In this document: one piece after another, positions 30,269 to 38,827 of the stretch | Layout of the letters: every line of letters begins with the position of its first letter | Numbering within the stretch: position 1 is the stretch's first letter | Assembly: GCF_014634805.1 (NCBI RefSeq) | Contig: NZ_BMBS01000017.1 | Span: 1-39,585 of the forward strand | Direction: 5' to 3' | Source of the DNA: Leuconostoc falkenbergense | GTDB lineage: Bacteria > Bacillota > Bacilli > Lactobacillales > Lactobacillaceae | Length of the DNA stretch: 39,585 nt | Program-made: the position numbers and the translations under genes | Notes under the pieces: model-generated | The model's input: the letters and a program-made list of their open reading frames with translations, nothing else | Told to the model about the DNA's origin: nothing | Database searches by the model: none

Positions 30269-30306
30269 AAAAAAAGCGTAGACACATGTCGTGTTTACGC
30301 TTTTTT
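30269..30306. terminator. Bidirectional terminator between the MFS gene and the 99-aa gene
   Basis: AAAAAAGCGTAGACAC (to 30285) pairs with GTGTTTACGCTTTTTT (30291-30306), one G-T wobble, 5-base loop. The stop of the opposing gene (30295-30297) is in the stem. Confidence 0.88.
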
Positions 30307-30594
30307 GTATGGTAATAACAAATCACTATCAACAGTTTCTGATGTCCATCGTTGCATTGGCGTGTAATTATGACGTTGATTGAAAGGTAATTTTTCTACT
30401 GCTATAACAGCGATAGTTTGGTTATTTTCAGTCAAAAAAACTTGTCCAAAATTAGCATATTTACCCTTTGTATGCTTACCTGTTCGCCAAATATTTGGCT
30501 TGGCACCATTATTTTTTGGCATGTATCGTCCAGAAGCATCCTGTTCAACTAAAACACCTGTGTATAAGTATGTCTCATATTTTGATTTGCTCAT
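30295..30594 (-). CDS. Hypothetical protein, last gene of the pyrR/carAB-like unit
   Basis: 99 aa, soluble and basic, with many Tyr, Asn and Lys. No domain recognised. It begins 20 bases inside the end of the CarB-like gene, so it is translated from the same mRNA. A GGTAGG stretch lies 11 bases before the ATG, a weak ribosome site. Its place at the end of the operon may tie it to the CarAB-like pair. Confidence 0.7.
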   Translation of the reverse strand: MSKSKYETYLYTGVLVEQDASGRYMPKNNGAKPNIWRTGKHTKGKYANFGQVFLTENNQTIAVIAVEKLPFNQRHNYTPMQRWTSETVDSDLLLPYKKA

Positions 30595-33088
30595 CGTATT
30601 TAATACCTACCCCAATCTCAAAACGCGTGCCATCAATCATCTGTGTTGGCTGTAAGTGTAAGGCATAGTTAATGTCTGAAGCAATCATAGCAACATCTGC
30701 TTGTAAAGTTAATTTATTGACATTAGTTAATAGTTCACTGTCCTGCGACGTCATTCTTGCCAACAATGCTCTCACTGTCATACGCAACCATTGCACCTGC
30801 ATCACCTTACTCATAAATGCCATTTGGCCAAATGGCATTGGTCGCAACCATGTATCATGTGAAATATCAGGCACATCAACATGTTTTACCCATTCTGAAG
30901 TATCCTGATACCAAATTACTTGGTAAACACCAGGATTTTCTAAATGTGTTTGCGCCAGTTGAATCGGCAGTTGCGCAATTTCTGGTACAATACGTAGCTC
31001 ACCAGTCATGTGTTGCGTAATATTGATTGGATAAATGTTATGCCCATCGGAAAAGACATTTAGTGCGAATTCCGTTTCAGTGTCATCTGGTCCATTCGGT
31101 ACGTGCTTTTCTTTTGGCAAAATTAAAACATTTTGCTTCAAATCAGCTAAGGCATCAATCAACTTACGTCGATTGCCAGGCACAATGATAGCAATTGGTT
31201 TTTCAAGTGCCACTACTTTCATAACATCTGATATTTCTAAGGGTTCCAAATACTGCTTGTCAGCCAGATTTTGTAGTAAGGTGGCATCACTTGCATTATT
31301 ATTCATAATCACGGTGTGATATTGTAAACGTCTTAATTCCGACAGAACAATCGTGGTTGCATAACCACCAGCGGCGGCATCACCCATTCGGAATGCGCCA
31401 CTACCAATCACTAAGACAGTATCTTCACTAACTGGCAATGATTCATTTTCCTCTTCATAAGTTGAATAATATTGTCTGGCATTTTCTGGGAATTCACCAG
31501 CAGATGGTTCTAATGCTTTGAAAGTTGGTTCAATATGATTTTCGTGTGCTAATGTTGCAATATTTTTAAAATTAGTCCGCCAGAATCGTGCTAACAAGCC
31601 GTCTGACAAACCATATTTTTTCGCACGTCGCAACGCCTCAACACTTTCAACTTGTTGTTCAACTTCTAATTCTAACTTTAACAAATGACGTAATTGGTAG
31701 AAAAAGAATTCGTCAATATTAGTTAATTCAGCCAATTCATCAATTTCATAACCACGCTTAATGGCTTCAACTAAGAGTAAAACACGATTGTCTTCCGGAT
31801 GAATCAATTGTTGAATCAATGCATCATCTGAGCTATGACTCATATTGGTTGGTGAAAAACTTGCGTTATTAAAGTGGGCTGAACGAATGGCTTTTTCAAG
31901 CGCTTCGATAAATGTTCGTCCAAAACCAATTGTCGATCCGACAGATTTTTGAATACTATTGAGCTGACGATTAACTGAAACGCCTGCTTGTTCCAATTCA
32001 CCGAAGGGAAAAATCGGTAATTTAACAGTGACGTGATCCATCATCGGTTCCATCATCGCCATTTTTTTGCCAAAATCATGGGATAAAACAATTTCTTCAA
32101 GGGCAACACCCATTGCCAAATTGATTGCAACCAGCATAACAGGGTATCCTGTTACCAATGCCATGCGGCTGGCCATTTGATCTATATAAGGTGATATCTT
32201 GATAATATAGATAGCATTCGTCAAATCATCAACAGCAAACTGGACATGCAGTACACCCCTTAGTTCCAATAAATCGGCAACCTGAAAGGCATAAAATCTC
32301 ATTTTTTCTAAAATTTGGTCTGAAAGCGTTAGTGTCGGTGATACACTCAAGGAATCAGCAGTGTGAATCCCAATTGGATCCATATCTTCACTAGCTCCAA
32401 TTTGCATTTTGTTGCCTCGAAAATCTCGTAACACTTCAAGGCTGATTTCTTTCATGCCATTAATAGCCCTTGAAATCACGATTTCTTGTGTCATCGACTG
32501 ACTCTTAGCACTCTTGACAGCCGTTTCAAATTCATCTAATCGTTCAACAATTTGTCGTGTGTTGGCCTGATTTGGGTGCAAGGCACGTACCATCAATGGT
32601 AACTTAATTTCACGTAATAGTTCATTAGCGTCTTCTTGTGCCTTGGCAACGTGATTGGTAATTACTGGTAAACCAGCATCGGCCATCATACTTGTCAAAA
32701 CGGCCACGTTATTAACACGCAATAACATGTCAATGGTTAGTCCAAGTGTTTGAGGGACTGGGCCATCGCCATGTGACCACGCCTGCACTGTTTGCGACCA
32801 TAAACGTAACGCCCTTTCACCACCGAAAAGTGGTAACACCGTATCAATTTGATACTGTTTAATGACCGCCTTAATATTTTCAACAGTTAGAGGTTTCCAA
32901 ATAGCCGTTGCCGCAAGACTTTCCAACGACAATGAGTAAGGGTTTTCATCAATCAGGTAGACATTAACGCCATGACCACGCAGTTCTGGCATGACTTGAT
33001 AAATGGCTGCATCATACTCTGCTTCACGACCAAAATCGTTAGCACCTGCACCGATAAATAATACATTGTTAGCTGTGATGTTCGACAT
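30575..33088 (-). CDS. Truncated, degenerate carbamoyl-phosphate synthase large-subunit-like protein
   Basis: 837 aa against about 1060 for CarB. Residues 1-405 follow the first CarB half: LPLFGGERAL (85-94), MKEISLEVLRD (212-222), DMDPIGIHTADSLSVSP (235-251), a TGYP segment, and GRTFIEAL (390-397). The active site is lost: the Gly-rich ATP loop is HPNQANT (171-177), and the metal/ATP residues of IEVNPR read IKISPY (296-301: E to K297, N to S299, R to Y301). An oligomerisation-like region (about 420-550) and a second pre-ATP-grasp region (556-650, VLVIGSGAFRMGDAAAGG) follow, but most of the second ATP-grasp half is missing or unrecognisable. The frame is open throughout. Start chosen at 33088 (GGAGG close upstream). 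Confidence 0.8.
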   Translation of the reverse strand: MSNITANNVLFIGAGANDFGREAEYDAAIYQVMPELRGHGVNVYLIDENPYSLSLESLAATAIWKPLTVENIKAVIKQYQIDTVLPLFGGERALRLWSQTVQAWSHGDGPVPQTLGLTIDMLLRVNNVAVLTSMMADAGLPVITNHVAKAQEDANELLREIKLPLMVRALHPNQANTRQIVERLDEFETAVKSAKSQSMTQEIVISRAINGMKEISLEVLRDFRGNKMQIGASEDMDPIGIHTADSLSVSPTLTLSDQILEKMRFYAFQVADLLELRGVLHVQFAVDDLTNAIYIIKISPYIDQMASRMALVTGYPVMLVAINLAMGVALEEIVLSHDFGKKMAMMEPMMDHVTVKLPIFPFGELEQAGVSVNRQLNSIQKSVGSTIGFGRTFIEALEKAIRSAHFNNASFSPTNMSHSSDDALIQQLIHPEDNRVLLLVEAIKRGYEIDELAELTNIDEFFFYQLRHLLKLELEVEQQVESVEALRRAKKYGLSDGLLARFWRTNFKNIATLAHENHIEPTFKALEPSAGEFPENARQYYSTYEEENESLPVSEDTVLVIGSGAFRMGDAAAGGYATTIVLSELRRLQYHTVIMNNNASDATLLQNLADKQYLEPLEISDVMKVVALEKPIAIIVPGNRRKLIDALADLKQNVLILPKEKHVPNGPDDTETEFALNVFSDGHNIYPINITQHMTGELRIVPEIAQLPIQLAQTHLENPGVYQVIWYQDTSEWVKHVDVPDISHDTWLRPMPFGQMAFMSKVMQVQWLRMTVRALLARMTSQDSELLTNVNKLTLQADVAMIASDINYALHLQPTQMIDGTRFEIGVGIKYDEQIKI

Positions 33089-34148
33089 AGTCCTCCACCG
33101 TTTCAAAAAAATCTGCAAAGACTGCTGTGGCTTCTAAAGGGCCAGGCGCTGCATCAGGGAAGAATTGTACACTAAAAGCGGGGTATTCACGATGCCTCAA
33201 TCCTTGCACGGCGCCATCTACTAAATCGCGATAAGTAACAAATAACTTTTTGCGATCAATTGAGTCATTATCAACAGCATAACCTTGCCCTTGCATCGCA
33301 AAGAAAATCTGTCTCGAAATGATTTCTTGTATTGGATGATTCATGCCATGATGTTCCGACGATAGCGGTGCCAAAGTAGCATCATTGGCTAGTGCAAATA
33401 ACTCATGACCTAACCCGATGCCTAGTAATGGTGCCTTTGTTTGCAAAACGCGAATTAGTGTCAATACACTATCTGGTAATGAGCGCGGATCACCAGGTCC
33501 CGTGGACAAAATGATACCGTCAGGATCCAGTGTGAGCACCTCGTCAACGCTTGTTGTATATGGCAATACAGAAACATTGGCATCATAATCACCCAACATT
33601 CTCAGAATGCCATGTTTTAAACCGAAGTCAATGACAACAATATGTCGTCCACGCCCTGGATTAGCATAAGGTTTGAGTGTTGCCGTATTTTGTACTTGCT
33701 TGTTTGTCAACACCGTAGCGACCAATTGATCCACCGCGTGATCGTCTGCAAAATCAACGATGGTAGCCTTTTGTGGGCCAGTCTCTCGCAAATGACGAAT
33801 TAATTTACGTGTATCAACCTGATATAAACCAGGTATGTTATGTTGCTTCAAAAAACGGTCTAAATTCATACGGCGCTGTCGATTAACCGAAACTTCCGCC
33901 AAATCGTGCACAATCATTCCCCTGATGGCGGGCTTGACAGACTCATAAGCTTCAGCATGAATACCTGCCGCACCAATAACAGGCATAGCAAATACAATCA
34001 TTTGACCATCATATATCGGATCTGTAATGATTTCTTGATAACCAGTCATGGCAGTATGAAAGATGATTTCACCAAACGTCGTAGCATGTGCACCAAAACC
34101 AAGACCTTCAAAAACAGTCCCGTCTTCTAAGATTAAATGTCTTTTCAT
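33069..34148 (-). CDS. Carbamoyl-phosphate synthase small-subunit-like protein, glutaminase-dead
   Basis: 359 aa, full CarA length. The N-terminal CarA domain that contacts CarB is well kept: LILEDGTVFEG, TAMTGYQEIITDPIYDGQ, VIDFGLKHGILR. The C-terminal class I glutamine amidotransferase domain keeps STGPGDP, but the triad is lost: GICLGHQ reads GIGLGHE (Cys to Gly245), and QYHPE reads QFFPD (His to Phe330, Glu to Asp332). It therefore should not hydrolyse glutamine. Start at 34148, GGAG upstream, 59 bases after pyrR; the CarB-like gene overlaps its end by 20 bases. Confidence 0.85.
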   Translation of the reverse strand: MKRHLILEDGTVFEGLGFGAHATTFGEIIFHTAMTGYQEIITDPIYDGQMIVFAMPVIGAAGIHAEAYESVKPAIRGMIVHDLAEVSVNRQRRMNLDRFLKQHNIPGLYQVDTRKLIRHLRETGPQKATIVDFADDHAVDQLVATVLTNKQVQNTATLKPYANPGRGRHIVVIDFGLKHGILRMLGDYDANVSVLPYTTSVDEVLTLDPDGIILSTGPGDPRSLPDSVLTLIRVLQTKAPLLGIGLGHELFALANDATLAPLSSEHHGMNHPIQEIISRQIFFAMQGQGYAVDNDSIDRKKLFVTYRDLVDGAVQGLRHREYPAFSVQFFPDAAPGPLEATAVFADFFETVEDYVEHHS

Positions 34149-34207
34149 AAAATACCACACTCCAAAGTTGTCATGATCTAACATCAAGATAACCAACAAA
34201 TTACAAT

Positions 34208-34735
34208 TTAGTGGACAATTTCCACGGCGTCCTTGCCATCAATTTCCTGTACAAATACTTTGATTTTTTCATTCTGAGCTGTTGGAATATTTTTTCCAAC
34301 AAAGTCTGCACGAATTGGCAATTCTCGGTGACCACGATCCACTAAAACAGCCAAGGCAATCGTTTTTGGACGACCAATATGAATTAAGGCGTCCAATGCT
34401 GCACGAATTGTTCGTCCAGTAAACAGTACATCATCAATCAGCACAATATTTTTTTCAGAAATGTTTAACCGTTCAGCTTGATTCAGTCCCAGATCATCAT
34501 GATGATCTGGGATATCATCACGAAAATTAGTAATATCAATCGCCATCACTGGTATACGAACACCTTCAAGTTGTTCTAGTCGATCGGCAATGCGATGTGC
34601 CAAAAACTCACCGCGTGTTTTAATACCAACCAAAACGAGGTCTTCTCCACCTTTGTTTCGCTCAATGATTTCATATGTAATACGAGTTAGCGCTCTTTGC
34701 AAAGAGGCATTATCTAAAACTTCTTTATTTGCCAT
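34208..34735 (-). CDS. pyrR: PyrR, pyrimidine operon attenuation regulator/uracil phosphoribosyltransferase
   Basis: 175 aa from the ATG at 34735 (AAGGA 8 bases upstream; an ATG at 34744 has no space for a ribosome site). It binds UMP and pyr leader RNA and has weak UPRTase activity. The PRPP loop [13 protein letters not shown] (97-109) is intact, and [14 protein letters not shown] is the family motif. It overlaps the rluD end by 11 bases. I do not see a PyrR-type antiterminator in the 59-base gap before the CarA-like gene, so its targets are probably elsewhere. Confidence 0.95.
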
Positions 34736-35663
34736 TGTTTTCATCCTTTCGAATAATAGGTGTTAATGTTGCTAACGCTTTATCAAAATAATCTGGGAGT
34801 ACACTATCAAACGTTAACTGTTCACCTGTCGTTGGCTGCGTTAATGACAAGGTCTTTGCATGTAATAGCTGACCATTCAGTGTAACATTTGCTAACTTTT
34901 GTGCATTACCATAGACCGGATCACCGACAATAGGGTGCCCAATATAAGTCATGTGAACACGAATTTGATGTGTACGTCCGGTTTCTAAACGAACTTGCAA
35001 TAGTGTATAGCCGACAAACCGTTTTAAGACTTGAAAATGTGTAATGGCTTCCCGTCCGCCTTCAGTCACAGCTTGCTTTTTACGATCAACTTTATGACGC
35101 GCTAGCGGTGCCGAAATGGTGCCAGTATCTTCCTGAAATTCGCCGCGAACTAGTGCAATATAGATACGTTGATTTTTATGAGCTTTTAATTGTGCTGACA
35201 GTGCTTGATGAGCAACATCATTTTTAGCAACCATCAGCAAACCACTAGTGTCGCGGTCAATGCGGTGCACAATGCCCGGCCGAAATTCACCATTAATAGT
35301 AGACAGTGGTGAATGATACATTAGAGCATTCACCAAGGTACCGCTTGTATGGCCGGCCGCCGGATGCACAACTATGCCCTGAGGTTTATTAACGACTAAC
35401 AAATCATCATCTTCGTATACAATATCAAGCGGTATATTTTCAGCCAAAATTTCAGTGTCTTTAGTTTCTGGCGGCGTAATTGTGACAACATCACCTGAAG
35501 ATACTTTGTAAGATCTTTTCACTTGTTTGCCATTGACTAAAATATTGCCATTTACCAGCCATTCTGAAAGTGTTGTCCTAGAATATGGTAACGTTTCTTT
35601 TGCCAAAACACCATCAATACGCCCAACCTGATCAACAATGTTAATCGTTATGTTATCTACCAT
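34725..35663 (-). CDS. rluD: RluD-family 23S rRNA pseudouridine synthase
   Basis: 312 aa from the ATG at 35663. An N-terminal S4 RNA-binding domain (about 14-60) is followed by the RluA-type catalytic domain with HRIDRDTSG (133-141, catalytic Asp136), RTHQIRVHM and GDPVYG. It modifies uridines in 23S rRNA. It overlaps ebsA by 11 bases and pyrR by 11 bases. The rluD-pyrR-carAB order is, as I know it, common in lactobacilli. Confidence 0.94.
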
Positions 35664-36042
35664 TCGTATCTTTATATCCTTTAATTTGTTCTGCAACATT
35701 GCGACTTAATAGGTATTTTCTTTTGCGATCTGCGCGTTCAAAAGACAGAAATCGTCCCTTTATTTGCCAATTATCAATATCTTCTAACTTAACTTTTTCG
35801 TATTCAGCCATTAAAATACGTCCCAAAAAAATTTGTGAGCCGGCCAAATAAACGCGCCTACGAATAATCATTAACAGGCCCACTAAGACCACTACTAAAA
35901 TGCTAGCAATTGGAAAAATATCAAACTTGAAGCCAATTTCATTCCAAATAATAAAGCTTAACATTAAAAATACGCCCCACCATAACCAACTCATGAGGCC
36001 GACAGAATCAATTGGCTGAAAATAACCGCGTTTTGGTACCAT
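35653..36042 (-). CDS. Small membrane protein, EbsA family
   Basis: 129 aa with two hydrophobic segments (about 16-33 and 42-60), then a basic cytoplasmic tail with a PH-like pattern (RILMAEYEKVKLEDIDNWQIKGRFLSFE). Length, two-TM layout and its place beside an RNase HI-like gene fit the EbsA family of lactic acid bacteria, whose function is not established. It is the first gene of the ebsA-rluD-pyrR-carAB-like unit. Confidence 0.65.
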   Translation of the reverse strand: MVPKRGYFQPIDSVGLMSWLWWGVFLMLSFIIWNEIGFKFDIFPIASILVVVLVGLLMIIRRRVYLAGSQIFLGRILMAEYEKVKLEDIDNWQIKGRFLSFERADRKRKYLLSRNVAEQIKGYKDTNGR

Positions 36043-36076
36043 GTGAAACTCTTTTCTATAAACGTATTCGTAACCT

Positions 36077-36085
36077 ATTTTACCA
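36077..36085 (-). promoter_or_regulatory. Extended -10 promoter of the ebsA-rluD-pyrR unit
   Basis: On the minus strand TG, one base, TAAAAT (36085-36077). No good -35 is visible, as expected for an extended -10. Confidence 0.5.
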
Positions 36086-36167
36086 GATTTTTGATATTAA
36101 AAAAATGATGACAAACAAAAGTTAGCTCGCCAATATCAAAGCGATAATTTTTTAGACACCCGACTTC

Positions 36168-36176
36168 TGTTATACT
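36168..36176 (+). promoter_or_regulatory. Extended -10 promoter of the RNase HI-like gene
   Basis: TG at 36168-36169, one base, TATACT at 36171-36176. The AGAGG ribosome site follows at 36194-36200. Confidence 0.6.
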
Positions 36177-36209
36177 AGGGATTGTAAACAATTTTAGAGG
36201 ATTTTGGAC

Positions 36210-36593
36210 ATGATGACACTTTATGTTGACGCCGCCCGAAACGTGCATGACGGACAATCAGCAGTTGGCGCAGTTTTAATTATTAACAAACAACAGCAAC
36301 AACTCAAAAAGGCTTTACCTCAAAGCGCTGATAACCATGAAGCCGAATTTATGGGACTTATCTGGAGTATCAAACAGCTACCTATGGTTGATAATTTACA
36401 GATTTATACCGATTCAAAAATCGTCGCTGACGCCATTCAAAAAAAATACGCCAAACATTATCAGTCTTATGTTGATCAAATTATGACCTTATTAACTGAA
36501 TATCCTTTGGTTCTAGTCAATTGGATACCTGAAAAGCAAAATCAGGGCGCTCATCAGCTCGCAATGCAAGCGTTAAAAAAAGCGAAACGCTAA
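36210..36593 (+). CDS. RNase HI-family protein
   Basis: 127 aa from the ATG at 36210 (AGAGG upstream; a TTG at 36204 is less likely). RNase H fold: Asp7 (LYVDAAR), Glu46 (HEAEF) and Asp68 (YTDSK) match three of the four catalytic carboxylates. The fourth, usually Asp in an ADALA-type motif, is His115 (GAHQLA). The family cleaves RNA in RNA-DNA hybrids; activity here is uncertain. It is divergent from ebsA and ends inside a large palindromic terminator. Confidence 0.85.
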   Translation: MMTLYVDAARNVHDGQSAVGAVLIINKQQQQLKKALPQSADNHEAEFMGLIWSIKQLPMVDNLQIYTDSKIVADAIQKKYAKHYQSYVDQIMTLLTEYPLVLVNWIPEKQNQGAHQLAMQALKKAKR

Positions 36594-36674
36594 TCGATGT
36601 GAACCCAAATAGTTGAACAGATTTTTATTCTGTCCAACTATTTGGGTTCACTTCATAATCGTTTCGCTTTTTTT
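36575..36674. terminator. Bidirectional terminator whose loop holds a second palindrome
   Basis: Outer stem of 15 bp: AAAAAAAGCGAAACG (36575-36589) and CGTTTCGCTTTTTTT (36660-36674). It includes the end of the RNase HI-like gene (stop 36591-36593 just inside) and reaches the stop of the opposing gene (36673-36675). Confidence 0.8.
36599..36651. repeat. 53-bp palindrome in the terminator loop, possible mobile-element remnant
   Basis: Two 23-base arms (36599-36621 and 36629-36651) with one mismatch and a 7-base loop. The arms run from TGAACCC through AAATAGTTG to ACAGA, with TG/CA near the tips. This is reminiscent of IS3-group terminal repeats placed tip-outwards with the interior gone. No clear target duplication is seen. 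Confidence 0.45.
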
Positions 36675-37071
36675 ATTTTGACAGTATACTTTCAATATAC
36701 TTGACAAAGTTTATTTTTTTTTGGTGAGCAGTATTCCAATATTTTAATAATTCATTATCAGAAATTGAAGATGAATCAATCCCTGCTTCATATAGTGCCA
36801 TTCTTGCTTTATTTATCTTTGATTTTAGTGTAGCATCTTCCCTCAGCGTCGTACTACTAGATGATGAATTACTTGATGATTGTTCAGTATCAATCGATGA
36901 GCTATTATGAGGCTCACTAATTTTCGTCGTTGAACTAGACCGTTGTTGCGTTCTTTCAGCTGTTTTTTTGCTAGTTGTTTTTATTTGCAAACTGTGAAAA
37001 TAAAAAGTAAAACCTATTATCATCATTAACATTATAATGATTAAAACGCAATTTATTTTTTTATATTTCAT
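36673..37071 (-). CDS. Small anchored or secreted Ser/Thr-rich protein
   Basis: 132 aa. A basic start and one strong hydrophobic segment (about 8-26, VLIIIMLMMIIGFTFYF) act as an uncleaved signal anchor or signal peptide. A Ser/Thr/Asn-rich linker (about 32-75) and a helical C-terminal region (about 80-132) follow, ending NFVKYIESILSK. No family recognised. It follows the ChW/C39 gene by 9 bases, so the two are co-transcribed and may work together at the surface. Confidence 0.75.
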   Translation of the reverse strand: MKYKKINCVLIIIMLMMIIGFTFYFHSLQIKTTSKKTAERTQQRSSSTTKISEPHNSSSIDTEQSSSNSSSSSTTLREDATLKSKINKARMALYEAGIDSSSISDNELLKYWNTAHQKKINFVKYIESILSK

Positions 37072-37080
37072 AATATTTCT

Positions 37081-38697
37081 TTACCTAATCGCAAATACTG
37101 GTCTTCCTGCATCCCAATCAACCGGATCCGTTCCCACTTTATTCCACATATAATTAAGAGAGTTCCATCCTTGAAAAAACATTTTATTGTAAGGATCAAA
37201 CACTTCAGTTTTTCCATTGTTATACCCGTACACCGTAACAGCATGATCTATCCCAACATTTTCAATCATTATGAGTGGTATACCCTGACTTAATAATAAT
37301 TGAGCTCGAGACTGCGAACTAATTTGTTCGACTGAGCGACCGTAAGATTTTGCGGTCACGACTATGTCCTTTCCGGAAGCACCTATTGCCCAAGGACTAA
37401 ATCCATCCATTCGTTTTGCTACGTCAGCTGGGGACAAATTCATTCCATAAGAACCGTGTAAAATCATAGCTAAACTGGTCGGTACACAACCAGTTGGACC
37501 GATTGTTGACGAGTTAAATTTATTTTTAGACCATCTAGAATCCAATTGTGAAAAATACGTCGGTTTTGGTCTTGGAAAATCATTAATTGTCGCATATGAA
37601 TGGTTTCCAATAGCTGGTGCAGTTGCACCCTTTAAAACCAGTAAAATCTGAACAGATTCCATTCTCTTTGAAGCACCTATGCTACCAATTATTCCACCAT
37701 TTTTTGTCCAGTCCAACCAGCCTTTATTCTCAACATGTGCACGATAATATACGTCATAATATTTGGATAATTCACCCCTTAACGATACTTTTAAAGCTTC
37801 CAAGCGCTTACCCTGTCCAACAGTACCAGTAATAACATTATTTCCAACCTCGGATTGCCAGCCAACATCTTGCACATGCCCTTGATAAACTATGCTTCCT
37901 CCCAATCCATTGTTAATAGTATTTATTCTAAGAGCTTCCATCCTTAAGCCTTTACCAGTTGTTCCCGAAATTTCACCATTATTTACAGAAGATTGCCAAC
38001 CAATATTTTGAACATGGGATTGGTATGAGATAGAGCTAGCTGAAATGAATGGTCGTAACTGATCCTCTGAAAAAGCTGTTCCTTTTGCAACTAGCTTGAT
38101 TTGAATTGCTTCTAAACGCGATGCAAAACCAGCAGAACCAACAGGAGCATCATTCTTTCCCCACGAAAGCCAGCCGAAATTTTCTACATGGACTCTGTAA
38201 TATACATCATAATGCTTACTTAATTCCCCAGTAAGATTTATTTTGATGGCTTCTAGACGTAGTGATCTACCAGTTGTTCCTGCTGACTCGCCATTAGACA
38301 AATAACTTTGCCAACCAATATTTTGAACATGGGTTGAGTAGGTCACACCACCAGGATAGGTTTTATTCAAATTAGCAACTTGTATTTTTATTGCTTCTAG
38401 TCTTAATCTCTGCCCTGTCGTTCCAGAAACAGCACCGTTTTCAACATTTTTTTGCCATCCTTCATTTTGAACATGTGTAGAATAACTAATCACAGGTTTT
38501 TCTACTGTTTCATTATTCACTTGACTCACACTGGAGTCACTAGTAACTTGAGAACTAATGGCGCCATTATCTTTTGAATCGTGTGTGTTTAAACTACTCT
38601 TGACAGATGTATCATTAGTTCCATCATTAGCGTAGCAATGGATAGACTCACCGAAAAACATTAAACACATGATAAAGCACAGAACAACTTTTTTCAT
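37081..38697 (-). CDS. Secreted ChW-repeat protein with C39-like peptidase domain
   Basis: 538 aa from the ATG at 38697. A signal peptide (about 1-23) is followed by a Ser/Thr/Asn-rich segment. Six clostridial hydrophobic W (ChW) repeats, each with a (T/S/G)HVQN-GW or HVEN-GW core and RLEA near its end, are arranged as two related triplets. The C-terminal 150 residues form a peptidase_C39_2-like domain: FSQLDSRWS, Cys404 (TGCVPTSLAM), His485 (IDHAVTVYGY), Asp501 (FDPYN). All three catalytic residues are present. The protein is probably wall-associated; the substrate is unknown. Confidence 0.88.
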   Translation of the reverse strand: MKKVVLCFIMCLMFFGESIHCYANDGTNDTSVKSSLNTHDSKDNGAISSQVTSDSSVSQVNNETVEKPVISYSTHVQNEGWQKNVENGAVSGTTGQRLRLEAIKIQVANLNKTYPGGVTYSTHVQNIGWQSYLSNGESAGTTGRSLRLEAIKINLTGELSKHYDVYYRVHVENFGWLSWGKNDAPVGSAGFASRLEAIQIKLVAKGTAFSEDQLRPFISASSISYQSHVQNIGWQSSVNNGEISGTTGKGLRMEALRINTINNGLGGSIVYQGHVQDVGWQSEVGNNVITGTVGQGKRLEALKVSLRGELSKYYDVYYRAHVENKGWLDWTKNGGIIGSIGASKRMESVQILLVLKGATAPAIGNHSYATINDFPRPKPTYFSQLDSRWSKNKFNSSTIGPTGCVPTSLAMILHGSYGMNLSPADVAKRMDGFSPWAIGASGKDIVVTAKSYGRSVEQISSQSRAQLLLSQGIPLIMIENVGIDHAVTVYGYNNGKTEVFDPYNKMFFQGWNSLNYMWNKVGTDPVDWDAGRPVFAIR

Positions 38698-38827
38698 TAT
38701 TTTTCTCTCACTCTCTATATCAATTGTAAGTATAACTAACAATTAATTAATTACCGAACAAGTATCATTATATATTAATTGCATTTTTTTGCATAAAATT
38801 ATATAAGAGTTTAGTATATTATCCAAA

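Follow-up and report, generated by a model that had tools for sequence, protein, structure and literature searches.

A window of 39,585 nucleotides (positions 1 to 39,585 of contig NZ_BMBS01000017.1, contig C17 of Leuconostoc falkenbergense; genome of 1.96 Mb, 94 contigs, 99.9% complete) was analysed for two genes on its minus strand that encode relatives of CarA and CarB, the subunits of carbamoyl phosphate synthetase (CPS). An earlier note on this DNA had read them as a pair that had lost both active sites and was nevertheless retained by selection. The CarA-like gene (33069-34148, minus strand; ATG at 34148, stop at 33069-33071) encoded a pseudo-glutaminase subunit of 359 aa that matched PF00988 (154 bits) and PF00117 (109 bits). 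The CarB-like gene (30575-33088, minus strand; ATG at 33088, preceded by GGAGG) encoded a subunit of 837 aa without part of the second ATP-grasp domain and without the MGS domain. Both frames were open with overlapping starts, as the note had stated, and the overlap was 20 bases. Comparison with relatives indicated that the pair is old and not decaying, and that it is kept mostly beside a PyrR. An intact pyrB-C-carA-carB-D-F-E operon was found on another contig of the same genome.

The order of genes on the minus strand was an EbsA-like protein, an RluA/RluD-family pseudouridine synthase (34725-35699), PyrR (34208-34744; NF003548 260 bits, cut-off 218), the CarA-like gene, the CarB-like gene, and a gene for a DUF7671 protein of 99 aa (30295-30594; Pfam PF24710, E 2.6e-40). 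PyrR lay directly upstream of the CarA-like gene with a gap of 59 bases, the pseudouridine synthase formed the upstream neighbour of the conserved block, and the start of the DUF7671 gene overlapped the 3' end of the CarB-like gene, again by 20 bases. A promoter and terminator scan of the window gave 25 promoters against 18.9 (sd 4.7) in shuffled sequences, and 7 terminators against 5.4 (sd 2.2); because this was little excess over the shuffles, co-transcription of the locus was judged from the gene spacing alone.

Lost and retained sites of the two subunits

Residues of the window proteins were counted from the annotated ATGs, with E. coli CarA and CarB as the reference numbering; apart from that of Cys269, the catalytic roles of the E. 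coli residues used here are ones that we take as given. In the residue alignment, Gly245 of the CarA-like protein (codon GGG, 33414-33416, minus strand) stood at the position of the catalytic Cys269, and Phe330 (33159-33161, minus strand) at that of the catalytic His353. These were two of the three losses in the glutaminase triad that the earlier note had claimed. The third, Glu to Asp332, was present at the Glu355 position and did not amount to a loss, since the intact CarA of the same genome (QFHPD) and 22 of the 79 canonical CarA also carried Asp there. In the CarB-like protein, the claim that the Gly-rich loop and the Glu, Asn and Arg of the first ATP-grasp site were gone was borne out: Lys297 (32198-32200, minus strand) occupied the place of the metal ligand Glu299, Ser299 that of Asn301, and Tyr301 (32186-32188, minus strand) that of Arg303, whereas Arg178 (32555-32557, minus strand) lay in the former Gly-rich loop at a position that is Gly in canonical CarB. 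The role of Cys269 of E. coli CarA is named in the titles of PDB entries.

The second half of the CarB-like protein was shortened, as the note had also reported. Its 837 aa compared with up to 1069 aa in the intact paralogue, Pfam recognised a single ATP-grasp (CPSase_L_D2) stretch instead of two, with the same gap in aligned relatives, and no Pfam match to the MGS domain was found in the protein. Two domains were kept, both above the Pfam cut-off: the N-domain of CarA (PF00988, at the score given above) and the oligomerisation domain of CarB (PF02787, 72 bits). The AlphaFold2 model of the CarB-like protein (pLDDT 76.5, pTM 0.80) aligned to residues 1-925 of E. coli CarB (Z 37.0, 788 residues aligned, rmsd 3.0), which argues that the CPS frame was kept without the allosteric domain. 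The pair resembled the bacterial CarAB/PyrAaAb enzyme (E. coli structures 1a9x and 1jdb) in its two overlapping genes, the CarA N-domain, the glutaminase fold, and the CarB domains D1, D2, and D3, and by homology and fold it was a CPS (CarA N-domain, CarB D1 and D3 by Pfam; Z 37 to E. coli CarB). It differed from that enzyme in the absence of the glutaminase Cys and His, the CarB metal Glu, Arg303, part of ATP-grasp 2, and the MGS domain. The Cys269 and His353 expected of a glutamine-dependent CPS were missing throughout, and the complete second ATP-grasp and MGS domain expected of a CPS were missing in the window protein.

To place these changes among relatives, residues were counted at 54 pair loci from 53 genomes (loci L081 and L093 were the same), chosen mostly from full-length matches, and in canonical sets of 79 CarA and 78 CarB. 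Frames were open at 54/54 pair loci. Cys269 was Gly in all 54, compared with Cys in 75 of the 79 canonical CarA; His353 was replaced by Phe (44), Ser (8), Leu (1), or Asn (1), with no His left, compared with His in 77/79; and Gln273, present in 79/79 canonical proteins, was Glu (Glu249 in the window) in 51/54. On the CarB side, Glu299 was Lys in 46 and Arg in 8 pair loci, Arg303 was Tyr (44), Phe (6), Leu (2), Asn (1), or Ser (1) and never Arg, and the former loop Gly was Arg178 in 52, whereas canonical CarB carried Glu, Arg, and Gly, respectively, in 78/78. Canonical CarB was equally invariant (78/78) at Asn301, Gly175, Gly176, and Arg129, which the pair kept at only 7, 15, 7, and 1 of the 54 loci, at Gln285 and Arg306, kept at 42 and 37, and at Glu215 and His243, kept at 52 each. 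The position of Arg169 was Lys or Arg in all 54. One replacement fixed across genera points to a repurposed cleft and not to plain decay, although CarB positions 129, 175, and 176 do look relaxed in the alignment.

Loss of the glutaminase in a CarA was also seen outside the pair. In Allobacillus halotolerans (L107:4872-6008), an independent CarA in a normal-looking pyr operon had Cys changed to Gly (GIGLGHQ) and His to Gln (QFQPE), and the CarB beside it kept the metal motif IIEVNPRVSR. This CarA resembles that of the pair in the loss of the nucleophile and differs in that its CarB synthase motif is kept; the enzyme is probably an ammonia-dependent CPS. Mammalian CPS1 has likewise lost the glutaminase nucleophile Cys and kept the CarB synthase motif. 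Three further canonical-type CarA were without Cys269, from a Robertmurraya metagenome-assembled genome (MAG; L108, Asp), a Clostridia MAG (L163, Gly), and Rikenellaceae (L158, Ser), so glutaminase loss alone recurs elsewhere.

Distribution, selection, and origin of the pair

A profile of the C-terminal part of the CarB-like protein (A3, 316 positions) separated pair-type from canonical CarB and was searched within Lactobacillales. Pair-type proteins covered at least 190 of the 316 positions in frames of 823-901 aa and scored at least 156 bits, whereas canonical CarB, among the matches listed, covered only the first ~116-143 positions in frames of ~1058-1153 aa and scored at most 142.5 bits. 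With the cut (E<=1e-44) set between the weakest pair-type and the best canonical match, pair-type CarB was found in at least 225 of 397 Lactobacillaceae genomes, a count that may be a lower bound, and in at least 21 of 40 genera. Carriers included Leuconostoc, Periweissella, Weissella, Furfurilactobacillus, Secundilactobacillus, Levilactobacillus, and Limosilactobacillus. At least 37 of 395 genomes in an order-wide sample carried it, all of them Lactobacillaceae; in ~320 genomes (G397-G717) of other Lactobacillales families there was none among the matches listed, which had canonical-type scores or nothing. A scan of named genomes gave the pair type at 12 of the best 80 loci, again all in Lactobacillaceae. 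The CarA-like protein was matched in 19/19 Leuconostoc genomes, including its own, with 88-100% identity. Two genomes (G141 and G164) had two A3 matches each. At loci L087 and L211, of a Limosilactobacillus-like genus (g6), a canonical CarB and the dead pair shared a strand and sat close together, with the canonical gene ~4 kb upstream.

Nonsynonymous (dN) and synonymous (dS) divergence was compared over ten matched Leuconostoc genomes (45 pairs, G003 left out) for the CarA-like gene, the CarB-like gene, the intact CarA, and PyrR. The median dN was 0.043 for the CarA-like gene, 0.129 for the CarB-like gene, 0.093 for the intact CarA, and 0.050 for PyrR, and the CarA-like dN was below that of the intact CarA in 45/45 pairs. 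For dN/dS, only pairs with dS of 0.05-1.5 were used, and since most pairs were near synonymous saturation (median proportion of synonymous differences, pS, 0.70-0.75) few were usable; the medians were 0.022 for the CarA-like gene (15 pairs) and 0.031 for the CarB-like gene (4), below the 0.042 of the intact CarA (10), with PyrR at 0.040 (10). The pair is therefore under strong purifying selection despite its lost catalytic residues, as expected of a pseudoenzyme that selection maintains. The mean identity across genera varied among the parts of the proteins. The CarB oligomerisation domain (D3) was as conserved in the pair as in 11 Lactobacillaceae CPS-P (0.49 and 0.48), whereas the pair was lower in ATP-grasp 1 (0.41 against 0.77), the first pre-ATP-grasp domain (0.35 against 0.78), and the C-terminal part (0.23 against 0.70). 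The two halves of the CarA-like protein had mean identities of 0.62 and 0.61, against 0.60 and 0.68 in CPS-P. By these identities, the assembly parts are held and the catalytic parts relaxed.

In a tree of 56 CarA, in which 15 of 53 inner branches were unresolved, the 27 sequences of the pair formed one side of a branch (support 100/100, present in all 200 bootstrap trees). This clade grouped with the CarA of Enterococcus, Streptococcus, and Lactococcus (97/97) and stood apart from the CPS-P and CPS-A of lactobacilli. An RluD-PyrR arrangement stood ahead of the canonical pyr operon in Enterococcus, Streptococcus, and Caldibacillus loci. Given this placement and gene order, the pair is probably an old pyrimidine CPS in the ancestral rluD-pyrR slot that was disabled once, with the working pyr operons now elsewhere. 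Among 53 unique loci, the CarB-like gene followed the CarA-like gene in 53/53, RluD lay within 2 kb upstream in 52/53, and PyrR lay within 400 bp upstream in 44/53. In the PyrR tree, the pair-linked proteins (32 of 46 rows) fell on one side of a branch apart from PyrR1, which was recovered in 85% of 200 bootstrap trees. The DUF7671 gene was found at 27 of 64 pair loci searched, some of which repeat a genome, all in the genera g1 (Leuconostoc), g8, g7, g39, and g2; it is a probable further member of the pair's unit in the Leuconostoc group. Elsewhere in the window, a gene at 37081-38742 (minus strand) encoded a protein that combines six ChW repeat stretches with a C39-like peptidase domain.

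PyrR and the carriers without canonical CarB

The pair-linked PyrR was the sole PyrR found in the window genome; one other match in the PyrR search (25% identity, E 1.8e-6) was judged to be a different phosphoribosyltransferase. As a PyrR RNA element was found before pyrB in this genome (56.4 bits, cut-off 54), the pyr operon is presumably a target of the pair-linked PyrR. The window was also searched for a PyrR attenuator of the operon that holds the pair, and none was found. Among the matches listed, only one PyrR RNA element lay just before a pair-linked PyrR (G061:C1:121494-121581; 40.9 bits, below the cut-off).

The genomes of genus g38 (2.6-3.7 Mb) had two PyrR in 5/5 tested and three CarB in each of four tested. 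In one of them, G265, the pair-linked PyrR lay directly upstream of the pair and was 62.2% identical to the other PyrR, and the CarB frames were 1071, 1028, and 863 aa. From the PyrR count and identity, the CarB frames, and the gene order, which fit L. plantarum, we infer that g38 is Lactiplantibacillus. The identity of PyrR1 and PyrR2 in L. plantarum is reportedly 62%. Arsene-Ploetze et al. are said to have described in 2006, in work that PMC3582564 cites, the role of PyrR2 in the inorganic-carbon control of the pyr operon in this species. A second PyrR ~62% identical to PyrR1 and beside the pair, as expected of a PyrR2 locus, was thus present in G265, and the pair-linked PyrR of Lactiplantibacillus-like genomes is probably PyrR2. 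According to two papers, pyrR1 and pyrR2 of L. plantarum are lp_2704 and lp_1782 (PMC7911632), and PyrR1 answers to pyrimidines and PyrR2 to inorganic carbon (PMC3582564). The CPS-A (carAB) of L. plantarum resembles the pair as a further CPS-like pair beside CPS-P. Unlike the pair, the CPS-A-like genes of G265 were separate genes, with a CarB of 1022 aa and a CarA with intact GICLGHQ and QFHPE motifs. The g38 genomes carried CPS-A-like genes separately, which ruled out the pair as an arginine-specific CPS.

Canonical CarB was present in 39 of 56 carriers, and in the other 17 none was found (E<=1e-60), although the pair was open there with the same residues. Four of the 17 (G031, G348, G076, and G051) were single-contig assemblies with 98-99% completeness; some others were less complete (G045, G354). 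A PyrF match (E<=1e-45) was likewise not found in 11 of the 17. In one of the 39 (G257:C1:764986-767873, genus g14), the canonical CarB appeared to be broken into two frames, of 676 and 355 aa. The first open reading frame (ORF) after a PyrR RNA element was identified in six carriers without canonical CarB: it encoded a protein of the xanthine/uracil-permease family in G041, G031, and G045, a nucleoside deoxyribosyltransferase in G033 and G100, and an MFS carrier in G051. Control of salvage by PyrR has therefore probably persisted in these genomes. No ORF was found downstream of the PyrR RNA element in G119.

Possible roles of the pair

The conservation in relatives, the low dN/dS, and the intact carAB elsewhere in the genome gave good support to the selected pseudoenzyme pair proposed in the earlier note, and the proposal extends to a pseudo-CPS of the family as a whole. 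Of the functions it had offered, a sensor, that is a regulator, fitted best. On balance, the pair may be a family-wide, catalytically dead CPS complex with a non-catalytic part in PyrR-linked pyrimidine control, a reading to which we give an even chance. The CarA-like and CarB-like proteins would use the CarA N-domain and the CarB oligomerisation domain to form, as before, a particle shaped like a CPS. A small ligand could be bound in the rewired first ATP-grasp cleft, where Arg178, Lys297, and Tyr301 are conserved and Glu214 and His242 are retained, and its state would be passed to the PyrR-dependent control of pyrimidine synthesis and salvage genes. Bicarbonate, a CPS substrate, is a candidate ligand, since PyrR2 is reported to mediate the inorganic-carbon response in Lactiplantibacillus. 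The narrower proposal, that the dead CPS senses bicarbonate or another carbamoyl-phosphate precursor by binding a CPS substrate in this cleft and reports to the co-encoded PyrR, is doubtful. In searches of an open-access library, no paper listed was recognised as a description of a dead CPS pair. A comparable case is the inactive dihydroorotase of Pseudomonas, which is reported to be needed for assembly of aspartate transcarbamoylase (reference in PMC6022934). There too a dead enzyme of the pyrimidine pathway serves as a structural part; the enzyme is a different one and its partner a pathway enzyme, whereas the pair is a complete complex with both subunits dead.

Several observations weighed against a role in PyrR-linked control. 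The tie between the pair and PyrR consists of neighbourhood and co-inheritance only, and the mechanism was deduced from these, the ancestry, and the fixed cleft residues; what the pair binds and how it assembles are guesses made from the sequences. PyrR was not adjoining in 9/53 loci, all of the Paucilactobacillus and Limosilactobacillus types, and the support for the grouping of pair-linked PyrR was moderate (87/78). No PyrR RNA element was found in 33000-37500 of the window, where two matches were chance hits to snoRNA/miRNA, or in 9 of the 56 carriers (E<=0.001, stricter filters), four of which were also without CarB and PyrF. The residues that we take to bind ATP and bicarbonate in the E. 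coli enzyme were mostly lost in the pair. The AlphaFold2 model of the CarA-like protein, taken for fold only, was weak in domain arrangement (pTM 0.55, whole-chain rmsd 17). The CarB-like dN exceeded that of the intact CarA in 43/45 pairs and was below it in 2/45, so the CarB-like gene is less constrained. Finally, in one of the 19 Leuconostoc genomes, the poor assembly G003 (890 contigs, 89% complete, 5% contamination), the CarA-like gene (C675:33710-34800, L026) lay in two frames and the CarB-like frame was cut, which may be an assembly error or real damage.

The broken frames of G003, together with the lost active sites and the deleted part of CarB, would suit a decaying pseudogene pair. 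That explanation can practically be dismissed in view of dN/dS of ~0.02-0.03, the open frames at every pair locus counted (mostly picked from full-length matches), and the single clade of the CarA-like proteins; conservation in relatives and dN/dS ruled out pseudogene and sequencing-error readings alike. A CPS that is still active with ammonia and has lost only its glutaminase, like mammalian CPS1, is very improbable: glutaminase loss alone is compatible with activity, as the Allobacillus CarA beside a CarB with its metal motif illustrates, but the pair has lost Glu299 of CarB at 54/54 loci and its ATP-grasp 2 is incomplete. A new enzyme would use the rewired cleft (Arg178, Lys297, Tyr301) to catalyse another reaction without the ATP-grasp metal site. 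The fixed replacements speak for it (Lys or Arg for Glu299 in 54/54, Arg178 in 52/54, Tyr or Phe at 301 in 50/54). It appears quite unlikely nonetheless, and with it the new ligase of the earlier note, because the glutaminase Cys and His and the metal Glu were lost in 54/54, Arg129 in 53/54, and the two loop Gly in 39 and 47 of 54, and the window CarB-like protein has a single ATP-grasp stretch.

Two other proposals keep the pair non-catalytic. In one, the dead subunits join working CarA and CarB in mixed oligomers and tune these as a partner or inhibitor of the true CPS. Such a role would account for a CarB oligomerisation domain that is as conserved as in working CPS when the catalytic domains are not, for the retained CarA N-domain, and for the coexistence of canonical CarB in 39/56 carriers (split in G257). 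It is improbable, and the partnership raised in the earlier note is weakened, since the pair occurs without canonical CarB in 17/56 carriers, including the four nearly complete single-contig assemblies, and so is not simply an obligatory CPS partner. In the other, the pair has a scaffold or moonlighting role independent of PyrR, perhaps tied to rluD or DUF7671, and the PyrR neighbourhood is inherited gene order. RluD adjoins 52/53 loci and PyrR only 44/53, loci of the Paucilactobacillus and Limosilactobacillus types keep the pair without an adjoining PyrR, and DUF7671 overlaps the CarB-like gene in the Leuconostoc group. This role is unlikely but deserves consideration; against it, pair-linked PyrR appear to be co-inherited with the pair, the ancestor of the pair was probably a pyrimidine-pathway enzyme, and rluD also precedes canonical pyr operons, so that its neighbourhood is probably inherited.

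As a dead copy of a complete metabolic enzyme with two subunits, present in at least 225 of 397 Lactobacillaceae genomes, the pair would make up a large family of pseudoenzymes in food and gut bacteria that are well studied. NCBIfam scored the CarA-like protein of the window above its cut-offs for working CPS small subunits, so a metabolic model may include a CPS for a genome that has no working one; the dead CarB was the only CarB found in 17/56 carriers. The pair is also a concrete candidate for how PyrR2 could link pyrimidine control to inorganic carbon. If the sensor proposal were true, it would explain why pyrimidine and arginine synthesis depends on CO2 in lactobacilli, together with the inorganic-carbon role of PyrR2.

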